A stretch of DNA of 64,000 bases from Chryseobacterium daeguense DSM 19388 (lineage in GTDB: Bacteria > Bacteroidota > Bacteroidia > Flavobacteriales > Weeksellaceae), in the NCBI RefSeq assembly GCF_000430825.1, contig NZ_AUMT01000001.1, positions 366,497 to 430,496 on the forward strand, read 5' to 3'. The position numbers and the translations under genes are program-made. Shown in pieces: positions 60,907 through 63,771 of this stretch; position 1 is the first letter of the stretch; every line of letters starts with the position of its first letter. Below the pieces are notes generated by a model. The model had not been told where the DNA came from and did not search any database. It saw nothing but the letters and a program-made list of their open reading frames with translations.

Positions 60907-60938
60907 TTTTGTCAGTTTCTAAAATTGTTGTATCTTTG
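60907..60938 (+). promoter_or_regulatory. promoter of the pyrB attenuator transcript
   Basis: TTTTG (60907-60911), 19 bases, TATCTTTG (60931-60938) is a canonical Bacteroidota promoter. Transcription should begin near 60943-60946, practically at the leader ORF ATG (60945). Confidence 0.75.
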
Positions 60939-60944
60939 CACCTA

Positions 60945-61016
60945 ATGAATAACACAGTATTTATATCATTAGAATTACCGGGCGCAGACGCCCTTTACGA
61001 TATTTATTTATTTTAA
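60945..61016 (+). CDS. pyrB leader peptide (23 codons), pyrL-like
   Basis: ATG to TAA, reading MNNTVFISLELPG... and ending ...DIYLF. It begins at the predicted transcript start and ends with its stop codon (61014-61016) overlapping the first bases of the terminator stem. The last codons are T-rich. There is no run of one amino acid, so coupling to UTP-dependent transcription speed, not to charged tRNA, is the likely sensor. Too short for usual gene finders. Function inferred from architecture. Confidence 0.75.
   Translation: MNNTVFISLELPGADALYDIYLF
60980..60993 (+). promoter_or_regulatory. GC pause hairpin inside the pyrB leader
   Basis: The stem GGGCG/CGCCC with a CAGA loop lies within the leader ORF and is followed directly by 21 bases with 14 Ts (60994-61014). 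An RNA polymerase pause here, prolonged when UTP is scarce, would let the ribosome catch up. Confidence 0.6.
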
Positions 61017-61043
61017 GCGAAGATGTTTCTTCGCTTTTTTTTT
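61015..61043 (+). terminator. attenuator (intrinsic terminator) before pyrB
   Basis: The 9-bp perfect stem AAGCGAAGA/TCTTCGCTT with a TGTT loop is followed by nine Ts, between the leader ORF stop and the pyrB ATG (61062). A terminator in front of a biosynthetic gene and directly behind a translated leader marks transcription attenuation. Confidence 0.85.
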
Positions 61044-61061
61044 GTAAAAAATTTAGATAAT

Positions 61062-61952
61062 ATGTTTACGATTACAGAACTAAGCACCGAGAGAATCAAC
61101 AGTATACTGACAGAAGCGATGGCTTTTGCCAATGGGAAAACTGCTAAAATTGAAGGAGAAGTTTTTTGCTCAAACCTTTTCTTTGAAGACAGCACAAGAA
61201 CAAAAACAAGCTTTGATATTGCCGAAAGAAAATTAGGATTACAGGTTGTTCTTTTCGATGCATCACACAGTTCGGTAAATAAAGGTGAAAGTCTTTATGA
61301 TACGGTAAAAACAATTGAAAGCTTAGGAGTGAATCTGGTCGTAATCAGAGATAAGAAAGACAGATACTTTGATGAGTTAAAAAATATAAAAATCCCTGTA
61401 ATCAACGGAGGAGACGGGACGGGAAACCATCCATCCCAATGTATGCTGGATCTGATGACCATTTATCAGGAGTTCGGAAAGTTTGAAGGCTTAAAAGTAG
61501 GAATTGTAGGAGATGTAAAACACAGTCGCGTAGCCAATTCAAATGCAGAAGCGTTGAGAAGACTGGGCGCAAAAGTATACTTCTCGGGACCTGAACAATG
61601 GTTCGATGAAGGCGCTTTAATTAATGGAACCTATCTTAGCGTAGATCAGCTGATTGCTGAGGTTGATGTATTAATGCTATTAAGAATCCAGCATGAAAGA
61701 CATGATTCAAAAATGAGTTTTTCCGCATCAGATTACCATAGAAAATACGGTTTGACGAAGGAAAGAGAAAGGGCAATGAAAAAAGAAGCCATCATCATGC
61801 ATCCTGCACCGATTAATAGAGGAGTTGAAATTGATACAGATTTAGTAGAATGCGAACGTTCAAGAGTTTTCAAACAGATGCAGAACGGCGTTTTCGCAAG
61901 AATGGCCATTTTAAAAGAAGCCTTGGAAAAAGAAGGGTATACCTTTAAATAA
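61062..61952 (+). CDS. pyrB: aspartate carbamoyltransferase catalytic subunit
   Basis: First committed step of pyrimidine synthesis, making carbamoyl aspartate. The 296-aa protein is read from the ATG at 61062 ([12 protein letters not shown]), after the attenuator; an earlier in-frame ATG at 61023 lies inside the terminator stem. The carbamoyl-phosphate motif Ser44-Thr-Arg-Thr ([11 protein letters not shown]), the HPSQCMLD segment and [12 protein letters not shown] are diagnostic. No pyrI follows; a repeat array and carA come next. It is controlled by the attenuator described. Confidence 0.96.
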
Positions 61953-61983: not shown

Positions 61984-62215
61984 AGCGAGCCCTGGAAGGG
62001 CGGCCTGTTAATAGCCATGGGTGAAACCCATGGAAAAAGAAAAGATAGTGTGAGCCCTGGAAGGGCGGCCCGTTAATAGCCATGGGTGAAACCCGTGGAA
62101 AAAGAAAAAGATAGTGAGAGCCCCGAAGGGGCGACCTGTTAATAGCTACGGATGCAACCCGTGGAATAATGAAAATAAATTTATATCAGCCCTGGAGGGC
62201 GACCTGCTAATAAAA
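61984..62215 (+). repeat. array of 3.5 two-hairpin repeat units between pyrB and carA
   Basis: Units begin at 61988, 62053, 62119 and 62188 (periods 65, 66, 69; the last is truncated). Each has hairpin 1 (GCCCT-gga-AGGGC or GCCCC-gaa-GGGGC), a spacer ending in TTAATAG, and hairpin 2 (CCATGGGT-gaa-ACCCATGG and variants). Stem changes between units tend to keep pairing. It fills most of the 289-bp gap; no ORF. Confidence 0.9.
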
Positions 62216-62241: not shown

Positions 62242-63315
62242 ATGAAGAAAAAATTAATACTGGAGTCCGGTGAAGTGTTTCATGGAGAAGGTTTCGGAGC
62301 AGAATTGGAAACTGCAGGAGAGGTAGTTTTCAATACCGGAATGACAGGGTATCAGGAACTGATATCTGACCCGTCTTACTGCGGTCAGATTGTTTGTATG
62401 ACCTATCCGCTTATCGGAAACTATGGGATTAATAGAGATGATTATGAGAGTATAGAGCCGGCAATCAAAGGACTTATCGTAAAAGAACTTTGTGATCTGC
62501 CATCCAATTTCCGTACTCAGATTACTTTAGATGAATTATTTAAAAAGAAAAATCTTTCAGGAATTTCGGGAATCGATACCAGAAGACTGACAAGAATTCT
62601 TCGTAACCACGGTGTTGTGAAAGGTAAAATCGTAAATGCTGATACCGATGAAAATACAGTGGTTTCAGAATTGAAATCAACAACTTTCCCTACCGACCAG
62701 GTGGCAACAGTTTCTACAAAAACGCCGTACGCTAACCCAGGAAGAGGATTTAAAGTTGTTCTTGTAGATTTTGGTTCAAAATTGGGAATTATCAGAGAAT
62801 TATCTCAAAGAAATTGCGATATCACTGTAGTTTCTCACGATGTAACTGCAGAAGAAATCTTATTGATGAATCCGGACGGCGTAATGTTGTCAAATGGTCC
62901 CGGTGATCCGGAAGATAATCAGCAGGCTCTTGAAATGATCCGTGGAATCTTAGGAAAGGTTCCGATTTTCGGAATCTGCTTAGGACATCAATTGATAGGT
63001 CTGGCTTGTGGAGCGAAAACATTCAAGTTAAAATTCGGGCACAGGGGAGGAAACCACCCGGTGTTGGATTTAGAGAGAAACAAAGTGGCAATTACTTCTC
63101 AAAACCACGGTTACGCCGTTGATCAGGAAAGTTTGAAAGGAACAGATTTAATTGAAACCCACATCGCACTGAACGACAGAACAAACGAAGGTCTGAAACA
63201 CAAAATTCACCCTTGTTTCTCAGTTCAGTATCACCCGGAAGCTAGCCCAGGCCCTGAAGATGCGAACTACTTGTTTGATGAATTTATCCATTTAATGGAG
63301 GATTTTAAGAAATAA
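62242..63315 (+). CDS. carA: carbamoyl-phosphate synthase small (glutaminase) subunit
   Basis: Hydrolyses glutamine to feed ammonia to CarB. The 357-aa protein has an N-terminal CPSase domain (GYQELISDPSYCGQIV, GISGIDTRRLTRILR) and a class I glutamine amidotransferase domain with nucleophile Cys246 (GICLGHQ), SNGPGDPEDN, and the HPEASPGP segment bearing the catalytic His-x-Glu. Usual length. carB is not in the window; the Y1 transposase gene and repeats follow instead. Probably co-regulated with pyrB if transcription crosses the repeat array. Confidence 0.96.
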   Translation: MKKKLILESGEVFHGEGFGAELETAGEVVFNTGMTGYQELISDPSYCGQIVCMTYPLIGNYGINRDDYESIEPAIKGLIVKELCDLPSNFRTQITLDELFKKKNLSGISGIDTRRLTRILRNHGVVKGKIVNADTDENTVVSELKSTTFPTDQVATVSTKTPYANPGRGFKVVLVDFGSKLGIIRELSQRNCDITVVSHDVTAEEILLMNPDGVMLSNGPGDPEDNQQALEMIRGILGKVPIFGICLGHQLIGLACGAKTFKLKFGHRGGNHPVLDLERNKVAITSQNHGYAVDQESLKGTDLIETHIALNDRTNEGLKHKIHPCFSVQYHPEASPGPEDANYLFDEFIHLMEDFKK

Positions 63316-63324
63316 GTAATAAAG

Positions 63325-63771
63325 ATGTCAACATTTCGCCAAATATACTATCAGATTGTATTTAGTACGAAACACAGAGCTCCTGTGTTGAATATTAAGC
63401 ATGAAGATCAATTGTATAAGTACATTTGGGGAATTGTAAAAAATAAAAACTGTAAACTTTATAGGATTAATGGAATGCCGGATCATATTCATTTATTTAC
63501 AGATCTTCATCCATCTGTTTCTTTAAGCAGTTTTGTAAAAGATATTAAGGTTTCAAGCAACTTATGGATCAAACAAAGCGGATTATTTCCTGATTTCGAA
63601 GAATGGCAAAATGGTTATGGTGCATTCACCTATTCTGAAAAAGAGAAAAATATGATCATCAATTATATTAAAAACCAAAAAGAACATCACAAAAATGAAT
63701 CTTTTGAGGATGAATATAAAAATTTGCTAATCTCTCATGGAGTTGAATTTGATGAAAAATATCTGTGGTAA
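63325..63771 (+). CDS. IS200/IS605-type Y1 (HUH) transposase, TnpA or RAYT-like
   Basis: A 148-aa single-strand DNA transposase. The HUH motif is His54-Ile-His56 (MPDHIHLF), and the nucleophile is Tyr114 with Gln118 (NYIKNQKEHH, the Y-x3-Q pattern). Full length and without frameshift. It begins only 9 bp after the carA stop, leaving no room for a left-end hairpin of its own, and is surrounded by the two-hairpin repeats. That fits a chromosomal REP-associated transposase better than an ordinary IS, though IS200-type membership is the firm part. Confidence 0.9.
   Translation: MSTFRQIYYQIVFSTKHRAPVLNIKHEDQLYKYIWGIVKNKNCKLYRINGMPDHIHLFTDLHPSVSLSSFVKDIKVSSNLWIKQSGLFPDFEEWQNGYGAFTYSEKEKNMIINYIKNQKEHHKNESFEDEYKNLLISHGVEFDEKYLW

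Follow-up and report, generated by a model that had tools for sequence, protein, structure and literature searches.

Organization of the pyrB Upstream Region

The window, by which we mean the whole stretch of 64,000 nucleotides that was analysed, carries the gene for the catalytic subunit of aspartate carbamoyltransferase, pyrB, with carA downstream of it (62242–63315). The divergent gene upstream of pyrB encodes an Lrp-like protein (below the cut-off of the Lrp model), and the putative attenuator described here is located between these two genes (Table 1).

Table 1. Features of the pyrB leader region, in coordinates of the window.
Feature	Position	Strand	Evidence
Promoter: -33 TTTTG (60907–60911), N19, -7 TATCTTTG (60931–60938)	60907..60938	+	
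5' hairpin pairing the leader start codon	60942..60972	+	Folding
Leader ORF, 23 codons and TAA, MNNTVFISLELPGADALYDIYLF-stop	60945..61016	+	Open to the terminator foot
GC hairpin GGGCG-CAGA-CGCCC, probable pause hairpin	60980..60993	+	Folding, conservation, covariation
Spacer from hairpin to U tract, A-rich family-wide	60994..61002	+	Genus-weighted composition, 24 genera
U-rich tract, probable UTP-sensitive pause region	61003..61014	+	Genus-weighted composition
Intrinsic terminator (attenuator): 9-bp stem, 4-nt loop, T run (stem arms 61015–61023/61028–61036; nine T 61035–61043)	61015..61043	+	Folding, covariation
pyrB, aspartate carbamoyltransferase catalytic subunit	61062..61952	+	NF002032, 355.8 bits (cut-off 263)

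A sequence-only reading of this DNA had described a promoter, a short ORF, a hairpin, a series of Ts, an overlap between the leader stop and the terminator stem, and pyrB itself; when the sequence was read again, all of these lay where that reading had placed them. The segment 60994–61014 contains 14 Ts, the leader stop codon TAA (61014–61016) overlaps the terminator stem, and this stem is separated from pyrB by 25 nt. Two features can be added, namely a 5' hairpin that pairs the leader AUG and a very short 5' UTR. The 121-nt leader folds with -29.7 kcal/mol (z = -4.9), a value that none of 200 shuffled sequences equalled. The TAnnTTTG-type promoter box occurs at chance density in the window (89 against 85 expected), and so does the terminator (1 in 1800 bases against 1.8 expected). 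It is conservation, rather than the promoter or the terminator singly, that decides that the element is real.

Other sequences were noted near pyrB. The gap between pyrB and carA contains similar palindromic repeats (61988–62164), which match the Rfam family Acido-Lenti-1 weakly, at E = 0.0005 and with a score under the gathering threshold. Just past carA lies an IS200-family transposase gene (63325–63771), whose product also resembles REP-associated transposases, below the cut-off of that model.

Leader Sequences Included in the Comparison

The nearest named matches to the PyrB protein, from 97% down to 92%, are titled Chryseobacterium (79) or Weeksellaceae bacterium (1); the NCBI lineage of Chryseobacterium is Weeksellaceae, Flavobacteriales, Bacteroidota. 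All 80 named loci carry the element between the promoter and pyrB. The counts by genus and family given below refer to groups of the genome set, g1 (the window's genus) and f1 (the family), of which the names were inferred.

We examined the region before pyrB in the window's genus (45 genomes) and in other genera of the family (68 loci), keeping genus g17 apart. A script accepted 112 of these 113 loci, taking the box nearest an ATG where several promoter boxes were present, and this yielded 91 distinct leaders from 25 genera; the leader counts for the window's genus cover the 45 genomes only. The leaders share descent (30 of the 91 come from one genus and 21 from another), so the counts are not independent. 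Left out of the counts were L049, which the promoter script missed and which fits by eye (99.5 bits with R1, the covariance model of the element), L002, which belongs to another carbamoyltransferase, and L115–L118 of genus g17, which have another layout and are not matched by R1 at E values up to 10. The inclusion of genus g13 depends on L069 from genome G159, which is probably contamination, since it lies on a short contig and its leader is closely like that of another genus. A few genomes gave weak second R1 matches; one of these, G159:C11, likewise sits upstream of a pyrB, and this other G159 leader also fits by eye.

Promoter and 5' Hairpin

At 105 of the 112 loci, 6 nt separate the promoter box from the leader ATG. 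In Flavobacterium psychrophilum the sigma-A box is placed at -12 to -5 (excerpts of PMC9723704), and because the TAnnTTTG box has this position in F. psychrophilum, a member of a related family, transcription is predicted to start near 60943, approximately 2 nt before the leader ATG. The leader mRNA is thus predicted to be nearly leaderless, with the ATG 6 nt past the -7 box and about 2 nt past the predicted start; a leaderless attenuator ORF is known from Sinorhizobium meliloti trpL (excerpts of PMC7298713). Neither an exact TAnnTTTG box nor a sigma-70-like site was found between the terminator and pyrB.

In single folds, at least two of the three bases of the leader AUG are paired within a 5' hairpin in 82 of the 91 distinct leaders, with p ≤ 0.05 against mononucleotide shuffles in just 56 of them. 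The helix is weaker than the other two: in the one register that was counted, 70.6% of cells are paired (69 leaders), and as the register differs between genera the single folds are the better guide. We can only guess at its role; possibly the hairpin closes the time window for ribosome loading.

The Leader Open Reading Frame

In 89 of the 91 distinct leaders the frame set by the promoter-proximal ATG reaches without interruption to within 8 nt of the terminator foot, compared with 2 and 20 leaders for the other two frames and with 0.20 expected from mononucleotide shuffles. By genus, the frame is open in 23 of 25, with g3 and g4 as exceptions, and the other frames have any open leader in 2 and 9 of the 25. 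Taken modulo 3, the distance between the ATG and the terminator motif gave no information. Leader length is 21–26 codons at 98 of the 112 loci, and the stop codon lies no more than 7 nt from the terminator foot at 97; at 13 the ORF extends into the terminator or beyond it, as in Escherichia coli pyrL, and at the remaining 2 it stops 11 and 16 nt short of the foot.

Two single loci show a deviating arrangement. L067 has 123 nt from the terminator stem to pyrB and a leader stop 16 nt before the foot, and possibly represents an insertion or a decaying attenuator. In L020 the hairpin is separated from the terminator by 17 nt, where 21 is usual; the usual stop is gone and the frame closes 9 nt into the terminator stem.

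Among the 19 distinct leader ORFs of the window's genus, 4 synonymous and 18 nonsynonymous changes from the consensus were counted, where random change would give 40:149; the corresponding ratio for pyrB in 45 genomes of the genus is 468:159. There was no sign of purifying selection on the leader peptide, a result that rests on 22 changes and is read with the restraint that the stems also impose on third codon positions. An open frame with no sign of selection on the peptide speaks against both amino-acid sensing and arrest peptides and is in keeping with the pyrBI type of control. The leader peptides are richer in Asn and Asp than six proteins encoded in the window (N, 0.103 versus 0.060; D, 0.071 versus 0.059). 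NNN is found in 8 of the 91 leaders, the longest run of a single residue in any leader is 3, and in 18 of the 91 no residue occurs twice in a row.

Middle Hairpin, U Tract, and Terminator

A middle hairpin of varied sequence is present in 88 of the 91 distinct leaders, with p ≤ 0.05 in 69 of the 91, and was not found in the other 3. As the best hairpin was chosen for each sequence, its presence is partly circular, and the test lies in the shuffle values and the steady position. In 69 leaders, standard pairs occupy 77.9% of cells of the middle hairpin, with changes on both sides at 5 of 5 pairs. The covariation score is 0.245 against 0.142 in shuffles (a control that related sequences can exceed), and 85% of cells are paired against 29–56% when the columns are slid. 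These covariation figures lean on middle-hairpin columns chosen by the analyst; the alignment itself was not fitted to the structure. RNAalifold, run on the whole alignment, recovered the terminator alone; the middle hairpin was recovered once its columns had been named. In the terminator, 98.9% of cells are paired and changes on both sides occur at 5 of 9 pairs (69 distinct leaders).

The composition downstream of the middle hairpin changes at a fixed distance. With genus weighting (24 genera), positions 1–9 after its 3' end have 36–65% A and 12–36% T, and positions 10–23 have 53–89% T with little G or C, the last positions being represented by fewer genera. In the his and trp pauses, the exit channel releases the hairpin 10–12 nt behind the active site of the polymerase. 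The U tract begins about 10 nt past the hairpin, and hence would lie at the active site of a polymerase that has just released it. Equating the middle hairpin with a pause hairpin is nevertheless uncertain, as the pyrL pause in E. coli was judged unlikely to depend on RNA structure (excerpts of PMC9291695).

A search of the 91 leaders for an antiterminator revealed no upstream pairing with the 5' arm of the terminator beyond that of shuffled sequences, the mean longest pairing being 4.8 bp against 5.0 bp after shuffling.

Distribution of the Element and of PyrR

Covariance model R1 matches 202 of 246 genomes of the family, in 24 of 33 genera; a PyrB match (E ≤ 0.001) was obtained in 213 of the 246, a number to which g17 and one or more very weak matches contribute. 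Each of 24 genomes of the window's genus has one R1 match, by position before pyrB. In a sample of the order, strong R1 matches (E < 1e-8) were found in 20 of 20 genomes of the family and in none of 128 others; weak matches in 5 of these 128 (E 0.006 to 0.05) are at about chance level. The sequence-only reading had proposed aligning the upstream regions of relatives in search of a conserved leader ORF and terminator. The comparison came out in its favor: the leader ORF, the overlap of its stop with the terminator, the hairpin and the U tract are kept across most of the family.

The regulator PyrR has the opposite distribution. In the sample of the order it exceeds the cut-off in 0 of 20 family genomes versus 93 of 128 others, and a profile search of 120 family genomes gave no protein over the 138-bit cut-off, which was passed in 6 of 14 controls. 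Weak matches to the PyrR model in 97 of the 120 (best 37 bits) are presumably other phosphoribosyltransferases. Outside the family we examined 8 loci of the order and 20 of the class; the genomes with a match there number 112 in the order and 112 in the class, the order figure including weak matches that are probably to other carbamoyltransferases. PyrR lies directly ahead of pyrB at all 8 order loci (two by NCBIfam, all 8 by position) and just before pyrB at 15 of the 20 class loci; 4 of the 20 lack PyrR and show no attenuator by eye, and one further locus was too short. Over the matched parts, the PyrB proteins of the family share approximately 35–46% identity with those of other Bacteroidia. 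The simplest account of this distribution is that PyrR control was lost in the family and that a leader-peptide attenuator took over.

Some members of the family differ. Genus g17 has a more divergent PyrB (51–52%), and in L116, L117, and L118 an open frame of 75–84 codons, without an ATG before the terminator, crosses a terminator that starts 86–110 nt before pyrB, somewhat like E. coli pyrL; L115 is without it. This leader is possibly a second form of attenuator. The sampled genomes of 6 of the 33 genera (g8, g10, g19, g28, g29, and g31) gave no PyrB match, and R1 likewise finds nothing in them; these are possibly pyrimidine auxotrophs, or use a different enzyme.

Comparison With Known Attenuators

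Attenuation of pyrBI is textbook knowledge in enteric bacteria: in E. coli, RNA polymerase pauses in a UTP-dependent manner and the ribosome blocks the terminator. The family leaders share with this system the position before pyrB, a leader ORF near the promoter, a hairpin, a T-rich tract and an intrinsic terminator. In pyrL of E. coli MG1655 the hairpin is followed by 10 nt and then TTTTTCTT, and the same 10-nt spacing is seen in the family leaders, a common geometry that is suggestive of pyrBI-like pausing, not proof of it. The proposal that pyrBI-like logic operates in a distant phylum is thereby supported, since the order and spacing of the parts resemble those of pyrL from MG1655.

There are also clear differences from pyrL. 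In the family the ATG is about 2 nt from the predicted start, lacks a Shine-Dalgarno sequence and is contained in a hairpin; the leaders typically have 21–26 codons, whereas pyrL has 44, and their stop lies at the terminator foot, whereas that of pyrL is 44 nt past it. In the window no pyrI is present between pyrB and carA, unlike E. coli pyrBI. At E values up to 10, R1 does not match the MG1655 region, a result with which very old common descent is also compatible; the attenuator of the family probably evolved separately from that of E. coli pyrBI.

PyrR-controlled pyr operons have the target gene pyrB in common with the element, but no PyrR over the cut-off was found in the 120 family genomes and the leaders have no Rfam match. 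The amino-acid attenuators of trp, his, and ilv also combine a leader ORF with a terminator; unlike in those, no alternative hairpin and no run of regulatory codons were found here, and the stop touches the terminator. In the window the two overlap, whereas they are more than 20 bp apart in amino-acid attenuators, and in E. coli a translated stop codon 5 bp before a terminator reduced termination from approximately 90% to less than 10% (both from excerpts of PMC4824070).

Searches of the open literature yielded no account of a leader-peptide attenuator for pyr genes in Bacteroidota. A term search of the main text of a survey of premature terminators did not return pyrB, pyrimidine or Bacteroid- (PMC2965389). 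For Bacteroides thetaiotaomicron, leader-like short ORFs are mentioned without being specified (excerpts of PMC7366714).

Interpretation

We consider it very likely from the sequence comparisons that pyrB is subject to ribosome-coupled attenuation, whatever the signal. That pyrB of this family is controlled by a UTP-sensing attenuator of the E. coli pyrBI type, in which the ribosome is coupled to the polymerase, is the reading we favor, with a probability of about 0.78. The site of initiation, leader translation, polymerase pausing, and UTP as the signal are inferred. The polymerase would start approximately 2 nt before the leader ATG, such that a ribosome could load at once, and the GC hairpin would form behind the polymerase when the active site is at the start of the U tract. 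With ample UTP the polymerase would outrun the ribosome, the terminator would fold, and transcription would stop near 61043. With scarce UTP the polymerase would linger in the U tract, allowing the ribosome to catch up and to reach the stop codon at the terminator foot, where it would cover the 5' arm of the terminator and permit read-through into pyrB.

The same anatomy would answer any change in the distance between polymerase and ribosome, and the spacer is rich in A, so that a ribosome-coupled attenuator might sense general coupling, the rate of translation, or a nucleotide other than UTP in particular. Such a sensor is unlikely given that the U tract, with little G or C, is conserved at the expected pause position, and that the element is placed before pyrB. 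Attenuation of the trp type, with the ribosome stalling at scarce codons such as those for Asp or Asn, could account for the leader ORF and terminator as well as for the enrichment of Asn and Asp and the NNN runs in 8 of 91 leaders, and leader-peptide attenuation has been reported for amino-acid operons of F. psychrophilum (excerpts of PMC9723704). We regard it as quite improbable here: antiterminator pairing does not exceed that in shuffles, 18 of the 91 leaders have no doubled residue and no run exceeds 3, the peptide shows no sign of selection, and the distance between leader stop and terminator, above 20 bp in amino-acid attenuators (excerpts of PMC4824070), is at most 7 nt at 97 of 112 loci.

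Three conserved hairpins, strong nucleotide conservation within the genus and the weak PyrR-model matches in 97 of 120 genomes (best 37 bits) might instead point to an RNA element that binds a protein or a ligand, of the PyrR type or a riboswitch, with leader translation playing no part. This is very improbable, as none of the 120 family genomes reaches the 138-bit PyrR cut-off, the leader strand of the element in the window matches no Rfam family up to E = 5, no Rfam family reaches its gathering score at 20 loci of the family, and the sequence between the hairpins differs from genus to genus, with the reading frame kept open. It is harder still to believe in an unregulated terminator or a chance hairpin, with pyrB transcribed from its own downstream start. 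Neither the promoter box nor the terminator is indeed more frequent in the window or region than chance predicts, but 98.9% of cells in the terminator preserve their pairing (69 leaders), and the terminator stem is followed by only 25 nt before pyrB, which contain no exact TAnnTTTG.

The UTP-sensing attenuator could be elaborated into a kinetic sensor with two gates on a leaderless transcript, arisen separately from pyrBI in a lineage that had lost PyrR. The start codon would then be reachable by ribosomes only until the 5' hairpin closes. Since the strand that closes this hairpin is itself rich in U in the window's genus, a shortage of UTP would lengthen the time available for ribosome loading, in addition to holding the polymerase in the second U tract. 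We put this forward as a speculative and rather unlikely extension.

If the pyrBI-type reading is right, the logic of pyrBI would also serve most of a family in another phylum, without detectable likeness in sequence. It would then likely be a case of convergent RNA control, with the same order of hairpin, spacer of approximately 10 nt, U tract and terminator. The lack of a PyrR over the cut-off in the family, against the PyrR-pyrB arrangement at most of the other Bacteroidia loci examined, makes this a testable replacement of one regulator by another. Since an attenuator of this design depends on tight coupling of transcription and translation, it would also offer a way to test for that property in Bacteroidota.
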